Source: Gallionella sp. (GTDB lineage Bacteria > Pseudomonadota > Gammaproteobacteria > Burkholderiales > Gallionellaceae). Taken from it: a stretch of DNA of 64,000 nucleotides. The DNA lies in contig JAQTTY010000004.1 in assembly GCA_028710525.1 (NCBI GenBank), positions 62,001 through 126,000 of the forward strand, in the 5' to 3' direction. Of the stretch, positions 10,238-46,663 are shown piece by piece (positions within the stretch are counted from its first letter, which is position 1; every line of letters begins with the position of its first letter). A program made the translations under genes and the position numbers. The notes beneath the pieces were generated by a model that worked only from the letters and a program-made list of their open reading frames with translations, had not been told where the DNA came from and made no database searches.

Positions 10238-10383
10238 ATTTTCCTGCTGCAAAGTTAAAGATGCGTTATTTATCTGTAAGGTAATTGTTGTCTGAATACA
10301 AATTCTCTGACTTGCTTTCCGCCTTGTCCGTGTTGATGTTATGGTATTCAATCAACCGTACTGTGAATGAAAGAATTTTATCT

Positions 10384-11073
10384 ATGCGCATACTCATCAT
10401 TGAAGACAACCGTGACTTAGCTTCCAACATGTTCGACTACTTGGAAGCTAAGGGTCATACCGTCGATGCTGCGGGCGACGGCATCACTGGCATGCATCTG
10501 GCTTTGGTTAATCATTACGATGCAATCGTTTTGGATGTGATGTTGCCTGGCATGGACGGCATCACGCTATGCAAAAAATTGCGTCACGAGGGAGGCAAGA
10601 ACACACCCATCCTGATGATTACAGCTAGAGATTCTTTGGACGACAAGATTCTCGGTTTGGAAGCTGGTGCAGACGATTATTTAGTCAAACCTTCTGAATT
10701 GAGAGAGGTTGAACTGCGACTGCGTGTTTTGAATCGTCGCGGCAGTGACAATGCTAAGAGTCAGAAACTTACTGTTGAGGACCTTATTCTGGATCCATAT
10801 GACTTTTCAGTCCGTCGTGGCGGCAAAGTTTTGGATGTCCCACCTATCCCATACAAGATACTTGAGTTGCTCATGACGCGCTCTCCGCAGGTCGTTAGTC
10901 GCGAAGATATAGAGCGTGTCGTGTGGGGAGAGAGTCGACCTGATAGTGACTCCTTGCGTGCCCATGTACATCTTTTGCGAGAGTTGATCGACAAGCCTTT
11001 TGAACGTAAGTTGCTGCGAACGATGCGTGGCTTTGGTTACCAGCTTGGTTCACTCGATGTTCCAAACACATAG
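10384..11073 (+). CDS. OmpR-family response regulator
   Basis: Protein of 229 residues starting at MRILIIEDNRDLASN; a start 33 codons upstream is rejected because it would add a stretch not found in receivers. The receiver domain (1-120) has the acidic pair Glu7-Asp8, phospho-acceptor Asp51 in VLDVMLPGMDG, and the conserved Lys in YLVKPSELREVE. The C-terminal winged helix (about 130-225) ends RAHVHLLRELIDKPFE..RTMRGFGYQL, typical of OmpR/PhoB DNA binding. Its stop overlaps the start of the histidine kinase gene by 17 bases, so the two are coupled. The next downstream gene is the Cyc2-like cytochrome. Its targets are unknown. Confidence 0.93.
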   Translation: MRILIIEDNRDLASNMFDYLEAKGHTVDAAGDGITGMHLALVNHYDAIVLDVMLPGMDGITLCKKLRHEGGKNTPILMITARDSLDDKILGLEAGADDYLVKPSELREVELRLRVLNRRGSDNAKSQKLTVEDLILDPYDFSVRRGGKVLDVPPIPYKILELLMTRSPQVVSREDIERVVWGESRPDSDSLRAHVHLLRELIDKPFERKLLRTMRGFGYQLGSLDVPNT

Positions 11074-12340
11074 CCTACGCTTTCGCGTTGCTTTCTACTT
11101 TGCGCTCCTAGGTGCCTGTCTTAGTCTGCTACTTTCGGGAGGTGTTTACTTCGCTGCCCTCAAGATTAGCGACAGGTTGATAGAAGAGACGCTACACGCT
11201 GAATTAGAGGATTCGGTGGTGCGTCATCAGCGCAATCCTGATTTCATCCCACCTGACACTCTTTCTATTAAAGGGTATGTACTTACCGACCAAGCTGTCG
11301 GTCGCGACATCCCTGATGAAATCAAATCATTACCTATCGGCACACAAAATCTCTCTTTAGATCAAGGTAACTACCGTGTGCTTGTTGAAGATAGAGGGGA
11401 TGCTCGTTATTTCCTTATGTTCGAGACCGATAGTCAACGCCAGCAAGAAGTGGAGTTACTCAACTTTCTAATTGTGTTTGCCTTAGCTATGACAGCCGCT
11501 GCAGCTGGCGTTGGATTCTGGCTGGCGTCGAGCATCATTGCGCCCGTGAGTCGCCTTGCTGAACAAGTTACTCAAGCCGAGCCTTACGACGTCAACCTTT
11601 CCCTAAGTAAATTAACTCGTAATGATGAAGTGGGCGAGCTCGCGCGTGCCTTCGATCGTTATCTGCGCCGTTTACAGGAGTTTATTGAACGTGAAAGTTA
11701 TTTCACTGCCGATGTCAGCCATGAGCTACGTACACCTCTTGCCGTAATCTTGGGTACGGTTGAGGTATTGGAGCAAGATGGTTCACTCAATGATAAGCAG
11801 CTCTTACGCATAGAGCGCATCAGACGCGCTGTTCAGGACATGATAGAACTTACTCACGCATTACTACTGATGGCGCGTGAGCATTCTTCAACGACTGTAG
11901 ATCAAAGCTGTAGTGCGGGCCTGGTGGTGAGCGACTGTGTTCTAAAGTATCAAAATCTAGTTGAAGGTCGACCCATAACGCTTAACGTCAACTTGCTTGC
12001 AAGCTTTGATCTGTATGTCGAACGACCCTTGCTTGAGATCGTGATTAGCAATCTTATACGCAACGCAGTTTTCAATACTGAGTCGGGCTCCATTTCTGTG
12101 ATTCTAGAAGCGGGGCGTCTAGTCGTTCAAGACACGGGGCATGGCATGGGCCCCGAGGAACTCGCCCATGCCATGGAACGGCATTACAAGGGGCCCTCAA
12201 GTGCTGGCTCTGGTGTCGGTTTGTCATTGGTTAAGCGTATCTGCGATCGATATTCATGGACCATATCGCTTAGTAGTCAGGAAGGACATGGTACTACTGC
12301 CGAGATTGTTTTTTCCCCTGCAACACCTGCTCTCCTCTAA
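11057..12340 (+). CDS. Sensor histidine kinase (class I, HAMP)
   Basis: Protein of 427 residues, start chosen at MFQTHSLRFRVAFYF just before the first membrane helix. Membrane helices lie at about 11-34 and 135-158, enclosing a small periplasmic sensor domain of about 100 residues that I do not recognise. It is followed by HAMP (about 157-210), HisKA with phospho-acceptor His222 in ADVSHELRTPLAV, and an HATPase domain with ISNLIRNAVFN, DTGHGMG and GSGVGLSLVKRI. It overlaps the response regulator gene by 17 bases. The sensed signal is unknown; the position directly before the Cyc2-like gene makes an envelope redox or metal signal plausible, which is inference. Confidence 0.92.
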   Translation: MFQTHSLRFRVAFYFALLGACLSLLLSGGVYFAALKISDRLIEETLHAELEDSVVRHQRNPDFIPPDTLSIKGYVLTDQAVGRDIPDEIKSLPIGTQNLSLDQGNYRVLVEDRGDARYFLMFETDSQRQQEVELLNFLIVFALAMTAAAAGVGFWLASSIIAPVSRLAEQVTQAEPYDVNLSLSKLTRNDEVGELARAFDRYLRRLQEFIERESYFTADVSHELRTPLAVILGTVEVLEQDGSLNDKQLLRIERIRRAVQDMIELTHALLLMAREHSSTTVDQSCSAGLVVSDCVLKYQNLVEGRPITLNVNLLASFDLYVERPLLEIVISNLIRNAVFNTESGSISVILEAGRLVVQDTGHGMGPEELAHAMERHYKGPSSAGSGVGLSLVKRICDRYSWTISLSSQEGHGTTAEIVFSPATPALL

Positions 12341-12541
12341 TTTTTCTCACCACTCCTCTCATTTTCATTAACGGATTTGTTGTAAAAAACACAAATTCAC
12401 AATTACTTCACACTGCATTTACGTTCGATTTACTTAGCCATTGCTAGCATCTGCCTCGTCTTAAGAAAGACGCAAGCTTTTATCGAATAGGGGTGTGCAG
12501 TTAGATACCCTACATTTTTGAAATCTCGGAGGAGAAACGCA
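12341..12541 (+). promoter_or_regulatory. Leader region of the Cyc2-like gene
   Basis: This 200-base AT-rich gap separates the kinase gene from the cytochrome-porin gene. It holds an imperfect inverted repeat at 12375-12396 (arms ATTTGTTGT and ACACAAAT) and a short hairpin at 12457-12472 (CGTCTT and AAGACG). A strong ribosome site CGGAGGAGA precedes the ATG at 12542. No confident -35/-10 pair was seen. The first repeat is a candidate operator. Confidence 0.4.
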
Positions 12542-13822
12542 ATGAAGAAAGTCGTTCTATCTTTGGCAGGTGTTTTGGCTGCTGTCGCATTCGCACCAGA
12601 AGCTTCTGCTTTGCCAGTTTTCGCACGTCAAACGGGCATGGCATGTTCTGCATGTCACTTTAACCACGCTCCGCTGCTGAACGGCTTCGGTCGCGCTTTC
12701 AAATCTGCTGGTTACAGCATGATGGGCGCTCAAGAAAAAGTTGAAGGCGAAAACCTGTCAATTCCCGATCGCGTGAACATGGCGATTCTGACTACCACTG
12801 GCTACGAAAAGATTCATGGTGGCGCTCCTGGTGCATCTCCTGGCGCATGGACTGTTCCTTCTAACGGTGGCGAACTGTCATTGTTTATGGGCGGCCGTAT
12901 AATGGACGGTTCTGGCTTCTTGGCTGAATTGGGTATGGGTGGTGCTGGCGCGGCTGTAGGCGCTGCTAAGTTGCTGTACATGCCAGAAATCACTTCTGGT
13001 ACACGTCTGGGTGTGGTTTTCGACACCAACAACGGTCAAGGTGTTGCTCACGGCTTCGAAATCTTGAACACCGGCGCGGTTAACGTACACAAGATCGCTT
13101 TGGGTCAAACTCACATCAACGTTTACTCTGCTGCTCAGTGGCTGGGTACTAACAACGCTACAACTGGCGTTTCTATCGTCGGTTTGAACGATATGGGCTT
13201 TATCAACGTGACTGCATACGACGTTGCTCCTCAAGCTATGGGCACTGGCGCTAGCCGCATGCCGCTGACTTACGCACGTGCTGCTGCTACATTCGATGCT
13301 GCTGGTTTCGATATGGCTGCTGGCGTACAACGCTGGATGGGTGTAAGTGATTCTCAGCAGTTTGGCGCCATCCAAAATGGTCTGAACCCACTTCAACCAA
13401 TTGCTATGGTTCCAGGTAACTATGATGCAACCGTGATTGACTTACAAGCTCAAGGTGACTTGGCTGGCATGTCTACTGGCCTGTACGCTTCCTACGGTTC
13501 TGCTCCTGCAAACTCAATGTTTGGCGCGGGTGATGCTGGTGTTGCTGTAGCGAATATCTTCAAGTCTACTACTCTGAACTTTGGTATGGATATGAACGTC
13601 GGTCACGAACTGATTGCACGTGCTGCGTTGCGTAAAGCGACTAACGGTGCTGACAATCTGTCTGACAATGCGATCATGGTCGGTGTAATTTACGAACTGG
13701 CTCAGAACTTTGAGTTGCATTACACACACACTAGTCAATCTGGCGCACATTGGAACGCAGTTGCAGGCGTTACACCTTTGGGCAAATCCACAGATTCTAT
13801 CGTGGCAGAAGTATTGTTCTAA
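12542..13822 (+). CDS. cyc2: Cyc2-like outer-membrane monoheme cytochrome-porin
   Basis: Protein of 426 residues. A signal peptide (cleavage likely after Ala23, ASA) leads directly into LPVFARQTGMACSACHF, with a single CXXCH heme site at Cys35-Cys38-His39, then LLNGFGRAFKSAGYSMMG. This short N-terminal cytochrome pattern followed by about 370 residues of alternating, Gly- and aromatic-rich strands ending in a terminal Phe (VAEVLF) is the layout of Cyc2, the fused cytochrome-porin used to oxidise Fe(II) at the outer membrane. Codons are dominated by GCT, GGT and GTT, which suggests high expression, and the ribosome site is strong. It has its own terminator. A related cytochrome-porin with another electron donor cannot be excluded by sequence alone. 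Confidence 0.82.
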   Translation: MKKVVLSLAGVLAAVAFAPEASALPVFARQTGMACSACHFNHAPLLNGFGRAFKSAGYSMMGAQEKVEGENLSIPDRVNMAILTTTGYEKIHGGAPGASPGAWTVPSNGGELSLFMGGRIMDGSGFLAELGMGGAGAAVGAAKLLYMPEITSGTRLGVVFDTNNGQGVAHGFEILNTGAVNVHKIALGQTHINVYSAAQWLGTNNATTGVSIVGLNDMGFINVTAYDVAPQAMGTGASRMPLTYARAAATFDAAGFDMAAGVQRWMGVSDSQQFGAIQNGLNPLQPIAMVPGNYDATVIDLQAQGDLAGMSTGLYASYGSAPANSMFGAGDAGVAVANIFKSTTLNFGMDMNVGHELIARAALRKATNGADNLSDNAIMVGVIYELAQNFELHYTHTSQSGAHWNAVAGVTPLGKSTDSIVAEVLF

Positions 13823-18298: not shown

Positions 18299-20131
18299 TT
18301 AAAGCCCTGCATTTTTTAGGCTTTTTAGGAAATCCGCCACCTCTTGGTAGCCCACCACGCGCGCATCCTCCAACTCTTGACCCTGCGCATCAAAGAACAA
18401 AGTAGCGGGTGGCCCAAACAAACCATAGCGCTTCAACACCGTCTTATCATCTGCCGTATTAGCAGTTACATCCATCTGCAACAAGACCGCGGAATGCATC
18501 TTTTGACGCACCTGCGCATCGCTGAAGGTATAACGCTCCATCTCTTTGCAGGACACACACCAGTCAGCGTAAAAATCCAGAACCACTACCTTACCTTTGG
18601 CCTCTGCAATACGGCTATCTAACTCGGCCAAATCCTTCACTCTTTGCCATGGGAATGGCGTAGAGACACTAGTCTCGGCTTTGCCCAATGCTCCCAGTGG
18701 TCGCAATATGTCATGCGCACCCGACAACGCACCTACAAGATAAGAGATACCCAACAACAGTAAGAGCAGGCCCACACCTTTGCGCAACTTGTGCCAACCG
18801 GTTGCACGCTGAGGCAAAGCATCTAGCACATGTAAATAGGCTGCTGTCAGTATCAACAACAACGCCCACAATGCCATCTGAACAGCGATGGGCAACAACG
18901 GCTGAATGATCCAGATTGCCAGCGCAAGTAACATCACACCAAAGAAGCGCTTGACCGCGTCCATCCATGCACCGGCTTTAGGCAGCAGTGCTCCGGCCGA
19001 TGTGCCTATCAACAACAGTGGCGCACCCATACCCAAGGCCAAGGTAAACAATGCCACTCCGCCTAACACCGCGTCATGGGTCTTGCTGATATATAACAGT
19101 GCGCCTGCCAGTGGTGCGGCGACACATGGGCCCATGATCACCGCTGACAGCGCGCCCATGATGAAAACGCCACTCAGGTGACCGCCATGCAAGCGGTTGC
19201 TGGTATCCGCCAATTTACTTTGCAAAGCGGTCGGTAGTTGTAACTCATAAAAGCCAAACATGGATAAAGACAACAGCACAAACACCGCTGCAAAACTACC
19301 CAACACCCACGGCGTCTGCAGCGCATTGGATATCAATTCTCCAGAGAATCCTGCTGCCACGCCTGCCAATGCATAAGTCACCGCCATACCTATCACATAA
19401 GCGAGTGACAGCATGAATGCGTGCATCTTAGTGATGTGTGCGCCGCGCCCTACGATGATGCCTGACAGTATCGGGATCATCGGAAAAATGCAGGGTGTGA
19501 ACGCTAATAACAATCCGGCACCAAAGAAGAACGATATCACTAACCAGAAGCTGCCTTGCTGAAGCAATCGCTCTATCTTGGAGCCTTCACTCTGCGTAAC
19601 AGCAGGAGGTGCGGCGGCGGTCGCACCGGGATCGATCTTGCCTGACCAAGGCGGCACATTTGTAGCGCTACGCTCCTGCATAGCAACCTCAAAGGTTTTT
19701 TCTATAGGCGGATAGCACAAACCTTGTTCGCTGCAACCTTGGTACTCCACCACGACTTTTATTTTTTCTGCGGGCTTGTTCGATTGAACTGGCACTGTAG
19801 ATTGGAAGGTGTGATGGAACACCACGATGCGTCCAAAGTTTGGATCGTCTTTTAGATCCCCTTCCGGAAACGCTGGTGCTGCCAATTTTGCAGTCCCATC
19901 CATTGCTTTGAAATTGATGCGATCGCGGTAGAGGTAATATCCTTGTGCGATATTGAAGTTGGCTTGCAATGTATGCGCATCCTGTGCGACTACTTGCACC
20001 TGAAAGACTTGATCAGGAGGCAAGAATGTTGGCTTTTTATTTCCCCCTAAGCCAGACAGGCTATCCAAGAAGTTGCTGGCCTGCACGAGCGGGCTTAACA
20101 ATAGGCAAAGAAACAATAAAACTGAACGCAT
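18299..20131 (-). CDS. dsbD: Thiol:disulfide interchange protein DsbD
   Basis: Protein of 610 residues, full length. It moves electrons from cytoplasmic thioredoxin to periplasmic DsbC/CcmG-type proteins. A signal peptide (ending about LVQAS) is followed by the alpha domain with the CSEQGLCYPP cysteine pair, a membrane domain of eight helices carrying FTPCIFPMIP and MGPCVAAPLAG, and a C-terminal thioredoxin-like domain with Trp524-Cys525-Val-Ser-Cys528. All six redox cysteines are present. It lies two bases after cutA, a usual partner gene. It would support cytochrome c maturation, needed for the heme protein upstream. Confidence 0.97.
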   Translation of the reverse strand: MRSVLLFLCLLLSPLVQASNFLDSLSGLGGNKKPTFLPPDQVFQVQVVAQDAHTLQANFNIAQGYYLYRDRINFKAMDGTAKLAAPAFPEGDLKDDPNFGRIVVFHHTFQSTVPVQSNKPAEKIKVVVEYQGCSEQGLCYPPIEKTFEVAMQERSATNVPPWSGKIDPGATAAAPPAVTQSEGSKIERLLQQGSFWLVISFFFGAGLLLAFTPCIFPMIPILSGIIVGRGAHITKMHAFMLSLAYVIGMAVTYALAGVAAGFSGELISNALQTPWVLGSFAAVFVLLSLSMFGFYELQLPTALQSKLADTSNRLHGGHLSGVFIMGALSAVIMGPCVAAPLAGALLYISKTHDAVLGGVALFTLALGMGAPLLLIGTSAGALLPKAGAWMDAVKRFFGVMLLALAIWIIQPLLPIAVQMALWALLLILTAAYLHVLDALPQRATGWHKLRKGVGLLLLLLGISYLVGALSGAHDILRPLGALGKAETSVSTPFPWQRVKDLAELDSRIAEAKGKVVVLDFYADWCVSCKEMERYTFSDAQVRQKMHSAVLLQMDVTANTADDKTVLKRYGLFGPPATLFFDAQGQELEDARVVGYQEVADFLKSLKNAGL

Positions 20132-41568: not shown

Positions 41569-42918
41569 ATGCAGGAAAAAACACTTTGGGAATCATGCCT
41601 TGTTTCATTTGAAAAAAGTCTATCGCCACAGCAATTTAAAGCTTGGATTAAACCACTAAGATTGTTACGTGAAAACGGCTCATTGATACTGACTGCCCCA
41701 AATAGCTTTACTCTTAAGCTTGTTCAGGAGCGCTTTTTTTCAGAGATTTCCAGGCAGGCATCTTTTTTATATCCCGATATCCCAAATTTCGAATTTAGAA
41801 TACAAGATATTGATGAAGTAATCAAAAATGATGTACCAGCCCCTGTTTCACTCATCAAACCAGAATTAAAGCCAAAGATAGAAACTTCCTTCAGAGGTTA
41901 CGGGAAATTAAATAGCAACCTTACTTTTGATAACTTTGTCATAGGTAAGGCTAATCAGCTTGCATTTGCTGCTGCAACTCAAGTTTCTGAATTGCCAGGT
42001 GTTTCATACAACCCACTATTTATATATGGTGGTGTTGGTTTAGGTAAAACTCATTTAACTCAAGCAATAGGCAACCAGATCAAGCTTAATAAGCCGGATG
42101 CAAAGATTTGTTATATGCACGCGGAAAGATATGTTGCTGACGTGGTAAGGGCTTATCAATCAAATAAATTTGAGGAGTTTAAGCAGTATTACCATTCTCT
42201 AGATATCCTTTTGATCGACGATATACAATTTTTTGCTGGTAAAAATAAGACGCAAGAGGAATTCTTCTATGCATTCAATAATTTGATCGACTCTCATAAG
42301 CAGGTGATATTAACCAGCGATACTTTCCCAAAAGAAATTACAGGGTTAGAAACAAGGTTGGTTTCAAGATTTGGTTGGGGTTTGACTATTTGTATAGAGC
42401 CACCGGAATTGGAAATGCGCGTTGCTATTCTTCTAAAGAAAGCACAATTAGGCGGTTACAAATTAGATGACTCGGTTGCATTCTTTATTGCTAAGCATGT
42501 GAACTCAAATGTTAGAGAACTAGAAGGTGCGCTAAAGCGCGTAGAGGCATACGCAAAGTTTCACAAAAGAGATATTTCTGTAGAAACTGCGAAGGAATCA
42601 CTTAAGGATATTTTAGTTGCGCAAAGCAGACAAATTTCAATTGAAAATATCCAAAAAACTGTTGCAGAGTTTTATAGGTTGAAAACATCAGAGTTGCTAT
42701 CAAAGAAACGCACCAGAAACATAGCTAGACCAAGACAAATAGCAATGACGTTAGCAAGAGAATTGACCAGCATGAGTTTGCCTGAGATAGGTAGTTCTTT
42801 TGGTGGCAGAGATCACTCAACAGTGATTCATGCTTGCAAGACTATTGAAGAATTAAAAAGAAGCGATAGTAATATATCAAATGACTACAAAACTATACTA
42901 CAGACCTTAAAAGGATAA
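41569..42918 (+). CDS. dnaA: Chromosomal replication initiator DnaA
   Basis: Protein of 449 residues. Domain I (1-80) includes LWESCLVSFEKSLSPQQFKAWIKPL; domain II is a short linker (about 80-115); the AAA+ domain has Walker A GGVGLGKT (154-161), Walker B LLIDDIQFFAGK and SRFGWGLTICIEPPELEMR; domain IV ends with the DnaA-box recognition motif GGRDHSTVIHACKTI. It opens oriC and loads the helicase. The gene is markedly AT-rich with many AGA and ATA codons, unlike most of the window. First gene of dnaA-dnaN-gyrB. Confidence 0.99.
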   Translation: MQEKTLWESCLVSFEKSLSPQQFKAWIKPLRLLRENGSLILTAPNSFTLKLVQERFFSEISRQASFLYPDIPNFEFRIQDIDEVIKNDVPAPVSLIKPELKPKIETSFRGYGKLNSNLTFDNFVIGKANQLAFAAATQVSELPGVSYNPLFIYGGVGLGKTHLTQAIGNQIKLNKPDAKICYMHAERYVADVVRAYQSNKFEEFKQYYHSLDILLIDDIQFFAGKNKTQEEFFYAFNNLIDSHKQVILTSDTFPKEITGLETRLVSRFGWGLTICIEPPELEMRVAILLKKAQLGGYKLDDSVAFFIAKHVNSNVRELEGALKRVEAYAKFHKRDISVETAKESLKDILVAQSRQISIENIQKTVAEFYRLKTSELLSKKRTRNIARPRQIAMTLARELTSMSLPEIGSSFGGRDHSTVIHACKTIEELKRSDSNISNDYKTILQTLKG

Positions 42919-43114
42919 CCTCAATGGAAAGCTGTTGGTAATTTGTCTATAACTTTGTAAGTTTATAAATCATAAAAGTTATAAACAATACTAAACAATT
43001 TATACAGCAGGAATTAGCAGTGCAATAAACGTATTATCAGATTGTTTAATAAGTGTTTATTTGAGTTGGACACAATTTTAACCCTCATTATTAGTATTAT
43101 TAGGTATTTATATT
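42919..43114. other. Candidate oriC (dnaA-dnaN gap)
   Basis: This 196-base gap is very AT-rich and holds near-consensus DnaA boxes: TGTCTATAA at 42944-42952 and TTATAAACA at 42979-42987, each one change from TTATNCACA. Gene direction switches from minus to plus at the dnaA locus, as expected at an origin. The rpmH-dnaA gap with its single perfect box is the alternative or second part of the origin. Confidence 0.5.
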
Positions 43115-44221
43115 ATGTTTATTAAAAAAGTAGATAAGCAAACCTTATTAAAACCACTGCAAGTTGTAATTGGTATAGTTGAACGCAAACAGACACTACC
43201 TATCCTTTCTAACGTGTTAATAGAAAAAGAACCTGGAAAGGTTCGGTTCACTTCAACTGATTTAGAAATTCAGATAACAACAACCGTAGAAATTAATGAT
43301 GATGATAGAACTACATCAGCTGTAACAGTAGGTGGTAAAAAGTTACAGGAGATATTAAGAATACTGCCTGAGTCGAGTGAAATATCAATAGAAACAAAAG
43401 ATAACAAAGCGCAGATTAAGGCTAATAAGAGTAAATTCAGCTTGCAAACTCTGCCATATGAAGATTTTCCTAAATTAAGTAATCAATTGATAGAGCCAAG
43501 AAAATTTTCCTTATCTCAAGGAAAGTTGAAGAGCTTGCTTGCCTCAGTGCAATATGCAATGGCTCAGCAAGATGTTAGATATTATCTAAACGGCGTTTTA
43601 CTAATTATTGAAAGCAATTCTTTAAAGGCAGTAGCGACAGACGGTCATAGATTAGCTTTTGATAACATCGATATCGGTGGATCACACGCAAAACAGGAAA
43701 TAATACTGCCTAGAAAAGCTGTGGTAGAAATGAGCAAACTTTTGTCTGATGCAGATGAAATTGTTGAAATAGAGTTTTCAAGTCAACAAATTAAAATTGA
43801 GTTTTCAGGCATCACTCTTATATCGAAAGTGATCGATGGAAAATTCCCAGATTACGAACGCGTAATTCCAAAATATACAAATCACTTACTGATGCAGCGC
43901 CAGCAAGTTCAGCAGGCATTACAGCGCGCAGCAATACTATCTAATGAAAAGTTTCGTGGTGTCAGATTCGTACTGACTGAGAAGAAATTAACCATCATAA
44001 GTAGTAACAGCGAGCAAGAAGAAGCTCAAGAAGAGATTGAAACTGACTACCAAGGTGAAGCAATAGATATTGGATTCAATGTAAATTATCTAATGGATGG
44101 TTTAAATAATATCCAAGGAGAAACTGCCATATTTTCGTTTGGGGACCCAAATAGTTCAATTCTAATAACAACACCAGGTAACGCAGATTACAGATACGTA
44201 GTAATGCCGATGAGAATTTAG
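43115..44221 (+). CDS. dnaN: DNA polymerase III sliding clamp (beta)
   Basis: Protein of 368 residues with three homologous clamp domains. Typical segments are RKQTLPILSNVLIE, FSLQTLPYEDFPKL, RYYLNGVLLIIE, ATDGHRLAF, and the C-terminal YVVMPMRI that binds partners. Strong AT bias like dnaA. It is separated from gyrB by about 60 bases that include a parS site. Confidence 0.98.
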   Translation: MFIKKVDKQTLLKPLQVVIGIVERKQTLPILSNVLIEKEPGKVRFTSTDLEIQITTTVEINDDDRTTSAVTVGGKKLQEILRILPESSEISIETKDNKAQIKANKSKFSLQTLPYEDFPKLSNQLIEPRKFSLSQGKLKSLLASVQYAMAQQDVRYYLNGVLLIIESNSLKAVATDGHRLAFDNIDIGGSHAKQEIILPRKAVVEMSKLLSDADEIVEIEFSSQQIKIEFSGITLISKVIDGKFPDYERVIPKYTNHLLMQRQQVQQALQRAAILSNEKFRGVRFVLTEKKLTIISSNSEQEEAQEEIETDYQGEAIDIGFNVNYLMDGLNNIQGETAIFSFGDPNSSILITTPGNADYRYVVMPMRI

Positions 44222-44248
44222 GGAACTACTAATTATTAAGTATCGATG

Positions 44249-46663
<2,415 letters not shown>

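Follow-up and report, generated by a model that had tools for sequence, protein, structure and literature searches.

Cyc2, an outer-membrane monoheme cytochrome-porin, is widely used as a marker of neutrophilic iron oxidation, and how cells switch it on is unsettled: in Sideroxydans CL21, cyc2 expression was out of step with iron-oxidation activity (PMC12442390). The closest described proteins are the Cluster 1 Cyc2 of M. ferrooxydans PV-1 and S. lithotrophicus ES-1 (Slit_0263-Slit_0265). In ES-1, transcriptional regulators stand before the cyc2 genes; the available portion of that report describes no partner gene, operator or regulon (PMC8788666). The accessible portions of other literature on cyc2 or Sideroxydans regulation (for example PMC3770913, PMC12442390, PMC5513912, PMC3179512, PMC7005843 and PMC4725956) hold no description of the system reported below. 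For Acidithiobacillus ferrooxidans, the title of one report presents RegB/RegA as a two-component regulator of Fe(II)-oxidation genes (PMC5506826). Here we analysed 64,000 nucleotides of a Gallionella sp. genome (assembly GCA_028710525.1, contig JAQTTY010000004.1, positions 62,001 to 126,000; hereafter the window), in which an open reading frame at 12542..13822 on the plus strand encodes a Cyc2 directly behind the genes for a response regulator and a sensor kinase. We consider it very likely that this is a Cyc2 iron oxidase whose gene is probably switched on by the two-component system next to it. The protein itself diverges within a family already described; what is new is the regulation, namely a two-gene sensor that has been little studied and, beside cyc2, a promoter switch with exact spacing.

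The reading frame (ATG at 12542, stop codon included) specifies 426 residues; with a relative encoded by most genomes of the family and a heme segment that hardly varies (both below), it is not a chance occurrence. The original prediction, made from the letters of the DNA, had recognized the Cyc2 layout in a single CXXCH, LPVFARQTGMACSACHF, GFGRAFKSAGY and a terminal Phe, all of which are present, and the layout is borne out by the remaining parts of the protein. A signal peptide (MKKVVLSLAGVLAAVAFAPEASA, about residues 1-23, called by eye) is followed by the AXPXFAR[Q/K][T/Y] motif as ALPVFARQT, three residues ahead of CSACH, the sole CXXCH (residues 35-39), and by the PXL motif as PLL (residues 44-46). 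The first of these motifs occurs in 50 of 53 family proteins, and the heme segment, ALPVFARQTGMACSACHFNHAPLL, is near-invariant in 20 aligned proteins. The structure prediction that had been proposed as a check returned a 16-strand outer-membrane barrel after the cytochrome domain (about residues 79-426). The length exceeds the Cyc2 minimum of 365 residues, and signal peptide, motifs, single CXXCH and barrel are those of Cluster 1 Cyc2 such as the PV-1 and ES-1 proteins, of which those of ES-1 entered our comparison. Searches of Pfam and NCBIfam profiles and of PDB sequences with the window Cyc2 gave no matches, a result that we explain by a weakly conserved porin portion.

High expression had been proposed from codon bias and a strong ribosome site, and both features hold. 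GGAGGAG (12528..12534, plus strand) lies seven bases 5′ of the ATG, and the codon adaptation index of the window cyc2 (0.729) is in the range of ribosomal genes: against 17 ribosomal, elongation/initiation-factor and rpoA genes of the same genome, named by eye, it lies inside the leave-one-out range of 0.507-0.743, exceeds 11 of the 17 and ties with one more. For comparison, atpA in the window scores 0.739, dnaA 0.488 and gyrB 0.477, and a second cyc2 copy elsewhere in the genome, on contig C18, scores 0.764. From these values it is a fair inference that both cyc2 copies are highly expressed. The genome also encodes RuBisCO and, above the profile cut-off, a DmsE-family (MtoA-type) decaheme cytochrome (G000:C1:157442-160867; L192, L196). 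Together with the Cyc2 relatives, which are encoded at E ≤ 1e-10 in at least 112 of 150 genomes of the family, this one included, and mostly in records named Gallionella and Sideroxydans, these genes make a lithoautotrophic iron oxidizer the natural reading of the genome.

Upstream of cyc2 lie an OmpR-family response regulator gene (10384..11073, plus strand; likely start MRILIIEDN, chosen by eye, in a frame that opens at 10285) and, overlapping it, the gene of a membrane sensor histidine kinase (11057..12340, plus strand). The receiver and Trans_reg_C (winged-helix) domains of the former and the HAMP, HisKA and HATPase_c domains of the latter all score above Pfam cut-offs, indicating an OmpR/EnvZ-type system. 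The OmpR-family regulators CztR, PmrA and PhoP share the receiver and winged helix, but the window regulator differs in its TTNAC box (below) and, among the best 25 of its 90 NCBIfam matches to named OmpR subfamilies (CztR, PmrA, PhoB and others), all are below cut-off (best 179.4 versus 279.2); the best 25 of 69 kinase matches likewise reached at most 161 against a cut-off of 350. RegA is a different type of regulator from the OmpR-type one of the window. The regulator and kinase that precede cyc2 in ES-1 (L054) are 83% and 59% identical to the window proteins, and the arrangement differs: a single cyc2 follows the pair in the window, versus a tandem array in ES-1, in whose genome (G050) we measured spacers of 604 and 437 bp between the three genes, as published (PMC8788666).

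The pair is closely tied to cyc2 across the family. A kinase match at E ≤ 1e-60 was found in 38 of 158 genomes. The 25 best kinases (47-62% identity, the window itself aside; E ≤ 6e-121) form one fully supported group in a 28-kinase tree that takes in only three of the remainder. In 23 of these 25 genomes, the window included, cyc2 lies on the same strand within 2.6 kb of the kinase, or in 24 if G095 is counted, where the contig ends inside the cyc2 that follows the kinase; in the exception, G089, another gene follows and cyc2 is on a different contig. Kinases of the other 13 genomes, at only 43-48% identity, make up a second type. Identity alone does not separate the two types (second-type G017, G025, G032 and G038 at 47-48%, the weakest cyc2-linked kinase at 47%), and a cut at 47% would give 24 of 29 rather than 24 of 25 with cyc2 downstream; the division is based on score (25th E 5.7e-121, 26th E 3.1e-119), regulator identity (72-83% versus 58-59%) and the kinase tree. 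In the three second-type loci that were read (L088, too short for the locus filter and read separately, L089 and L090, in G032, G038 and G010; kinase 45-48%), cyc2 is absent from the surroundings and the pair is followed by SulP-type transporter genes. In G032 and G010 a three-box array of the kind described below also stands behind the kinase. These features hint at a sister system that serves the uptake of inorganic anions or carbon.

A plain sigma-70 scan between kinase and cyc2 returned no promoter, and activator boxes were therefore looked for. A first guess drawn from the window alone, ATTTAC-N5-ATTTAC, proved too narrow; the form read from relatives was TTNAC-N6-TTNAC. On the plus strand of the window, four TTNAC boxes with an 11-bp period occupy 12396..12433 (TTCAC at 12396 and 12407, TTTAC at 12418 and 12429), and 11 nt past the last box stands a −10 element, TAGCAT (12445..12450, plus strand, within ATTGCTAGCAT), from which transcription would start near 12457. 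The two-box pattern occurs nowhere else on either strand of the window. This layout is the one expected when an OmpR-type activator replaces the −35 element, and sites of the CztR, PmrA and PhoP type have half-sites at each helical turn near the −10.

On the coding strand only, an exact box pair was found within 300 bases upstream of the first cyc2 behind the kinase in 23 of 23 loci, compared with a mean of 0.155 and a maximum of 2 in shuffled sequences. This count is not independent, since the relatives that gave the pattern also supplied the 23 sequences. Promoter counts leave out L010, L014 and L019, which are repeat genomes under other ids; L005, L020 and L026 are on the same exclusion list, and L083, where the contig ends inside cyc2, and L077 are also outside the 23. 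We place more weight on other checks, namely whole-genome counts, G089 and G095 (both outside the 23) and the spacing of the −10 element. TAGNAT stands 11 nt after the last exact box in 18 of the 23 promoters and at 22 or 33 nt in the other five, that is, a whole number of box steps further, against a background of 45 in 663 windows of 40 nt. Of 10 later cyc2 copies in these loci, 9 carry the pair, and in 7 of the 9 TAGNAT follows within 40 nt, at a distance of 11 nt in 5 and of 19 nt in 2. The pair precedes only 2 of 28 cyc2 genes in loci lacking the two-component system; such loci include tandem cyc2 pairs at L004:6001-8990 and L016:6001-8442. Upstream of the C18 cyc2 there is one pair, which coincides in part with a sigma-70-like promoter (TTGACA-N18-TACAGT) and was not counted as regulation.

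Genome-wide, exact three-box sites numbered 97 in the 25 genomes with the first kinase type, versus 4 for a reversed control; the 97 include the cyc2 arrays already seen. There were 12 versus 3 in the 13 genomes with only the second type, and 33 versus 60 in the 120 genomes with neither. Two-box sites in the Gallionella genome itself showed no enrichment (48 versus 73 in the control) and were not used. The 97 sites merge into 63 arrays in 23 genomes. Their targets, labelled by hand, are 28 cyc2 genes, one cyc2 cut by a contig end, 8 small monoheme cytochromes c, 4 diheme cytochrome genes, 2 [NiFe] hydrogenase small subunits, 2 hemerythrin genes and 1 subunit gene of a COX1-family (probably cbb3) oxidase. 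Pfam checks of these labels covered the oxidase, the two hemerythrins, one protein each of the diheme and hydrogenase groups and two small cytochromes. In ES-1, each of the three cyc2 genes has an array before it, as do a small cytochrome c gene (at 24.5 kb) and a diheme cytochrome gene (at 2.696 Mb); one more array lacks a target. Position and domain suggest that the diheme gene could be Slit_2657, the cyc1 homologue that the ES-1 report associates with a cbb3 cluster and with upregulation in response to FeCl2 (PMC8788666). The hydrogenase arrays (L164:3278 and L176:445, in G093 and G001) would place the use of hydrogen and that of iron under a common regulator. With its readable operator, the conserved regulator predicts which cyc2 copies and electron-transfer genes belong together.

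Our explanation joins these parts as follows. The phosphorylated regulator would bind the four boxes, one helical turn apart, and recruit RNA polymerase to the TAGCAT element in place of a −35 contact, with Fe(II) or a linked redox state as the presumed signal of this putative switch for iron-oxidation genes. By analogy with characterized relatives, dissolved Fe(II) would enter the 16-strand barrel and give its electron to a single heme c loaded in the N-terminal domain, from which it would pass through periplasmic cytochromes to a terminal oxidase, part of the electrons being driven uphill to form NADH for CO2 fixation. A wider proposal, which we put forward tentatively, is that kinase and regulator form a dedicated Fe(II) or linked-redox sensor-switch of Sideroxydans-type Gallionellaceae whose TTNAC arrays control the complete downhill route, comprising Cyc2, the small cytochromes c of the periplasm, a diheme cytochrome and the cbb3 oxidase, and that Gallionella has largely lost the system, with the window lineage keeping it for one divergent Cyc2. 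In ES-1, cyc2_2 and cyc2_3 rise on Fe(II)-citrate relative to thiosulfate (PMC8788666).

Several observations weigh against this explanation. Residues 1-76 of the predicted Cyc2 structure, comprising the heme domain, have a predicted local distance difference test score below 50. No recognizable metal-binding signature (ExxE-like motifs were sought) was found by eye in the sensor domains of the 25 kinases, which makes Fe(II) as the signal a guess. Of the 63 arrays, 17 have no convincing target and some are probably due to chance; G003 and G087, among the 25 genomes, have no exact three-box site; and the only three-box array in the Gallionella genome is that at the window cyc2, the wider regulon being visible only in relatives. 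In ES-1, expression of cyc2_1 is high on thiosulfate as well (PMC8788666), a poor fit with simple Fe(II)-dependent on/off control, and the system may therefore tune rather than switch.

The same lack of a metal motif favours an alternative that may well be right, if short of probable: that the two-component system controls cyc2 but senses oxygen, general redox or energy status, with iron oxidation one of several targets. The arrays before hydrogenase, hemerythrin and probable cbb3 genes in relatives fit such a signal, as does the identical three-box array of the second-type pair in G032 and G010, with its SulP-type genes. On the other side, the kinase precedes cyc2 in 24 of 25 genomes and 28 of the 63 arrays are at cyc2.

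It is unlikely that the window protein, although a Cyc2 homologue, has another donor or role, such as Fe(II) sensor or porin for chelated or solid iron, and leaves bulk oxidation to the C18 copy. This Cyc2 departs from those of PV-1 and ES-1 in a long branch, the CHFNHAP segment and a second Cyc2 (45% identity) elsewhere in the genome, and the first two count in favour of such a role. Its place in a 53-row tree, whose rows hold no Cluster 2 or 3 references, is among the Gallionellaceae Cyc2, in the half where a final Phe prevails and to which the middle ES-1 copy also belongs; the C18 copy falls in the other half, whose members mostly end in Ala-Trp or Ser-Trp. Its nearest neighbour is one protein of another genus (G057), on a branch of 0.6 changes per column. 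Both carry CHFNHAP beside the heme; in the remaining 51 rows that Pro is preceded by Phe or Tyr. At the DNA level the exact variant is encoded in 2 of 158 family genomes, this one included. Moreover, the C18 copy has the higher codon adaptation index, and the CL21 paper suggests that Cyc2 might be an Fe(II) sensor (PMC12442390). Nevertheless, the heme and porin features that we tested are kept, and a codon bias equal to that of ribosomal genes fits a bulk enzyme better than a sensor. G083, of the same genus, has one match, and Gallionella ES-2 carries one cyc2 (PMC3770913). All cyc2-bearing Gallionellaceae iron oxidizers are reported to have at least one Cluster 1 Cyc2 (PMC10734462).

That the repeats are ordinary −35-like or chance A+T-rich sequence beside an unrelated two-component system is very improbable: TTGAC does resemble a −35 hexamer, and the C18 pair is probably just that, but the 23 of 23 count against the shuffled mean, the fixed 11-nt register and the concentration of three-box sites in genomes owning the system all speak against it.

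The surroundings of the locus bear on its origin. The first-group kinase is found in none of the other 75 genomes of the genus in our set. The order gcvT, regulator, kinase, cyc2, DUF3426, prmA, accC is kept in the Sideroxydans-type loci L010, L014, L019, L062 and L082; in the window, an additional epimerase-like gene separates gcvT from the regulator. In 12 of 41 genomes of the genus, this one included, gcvT and prmA share a contig at a distance of at most 6.5 kb, and among the other 11 the gap is 1.0-1.8 kb in eight, too short for the regulator-kinase-cyc2 block, and 3.0-5.4 kb in three. The conserved order and the short gaps suggest that the window probably keeps an ancestral site lost by other Gallionella; acquisition by transfer is a possible alternative.

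Some features lie beyond the cyc2 locus. Just upstream of the DmsE-family gene is a 686-residue open reading frame with weaker decaheme-profile matches, and that locus could provide a second outer-membrane electron route. A DsbD-type thiol-disulfide protein, of a kind used in cytochrome c maturation, is encoded at 18302-20131 of the window, a few genes from cyc2. Finally, dnaA, dnaN and gyrB stand in a row at 41569-46663, with parB, gidA and mnmE nearby, and the replication origin is probably within the window.
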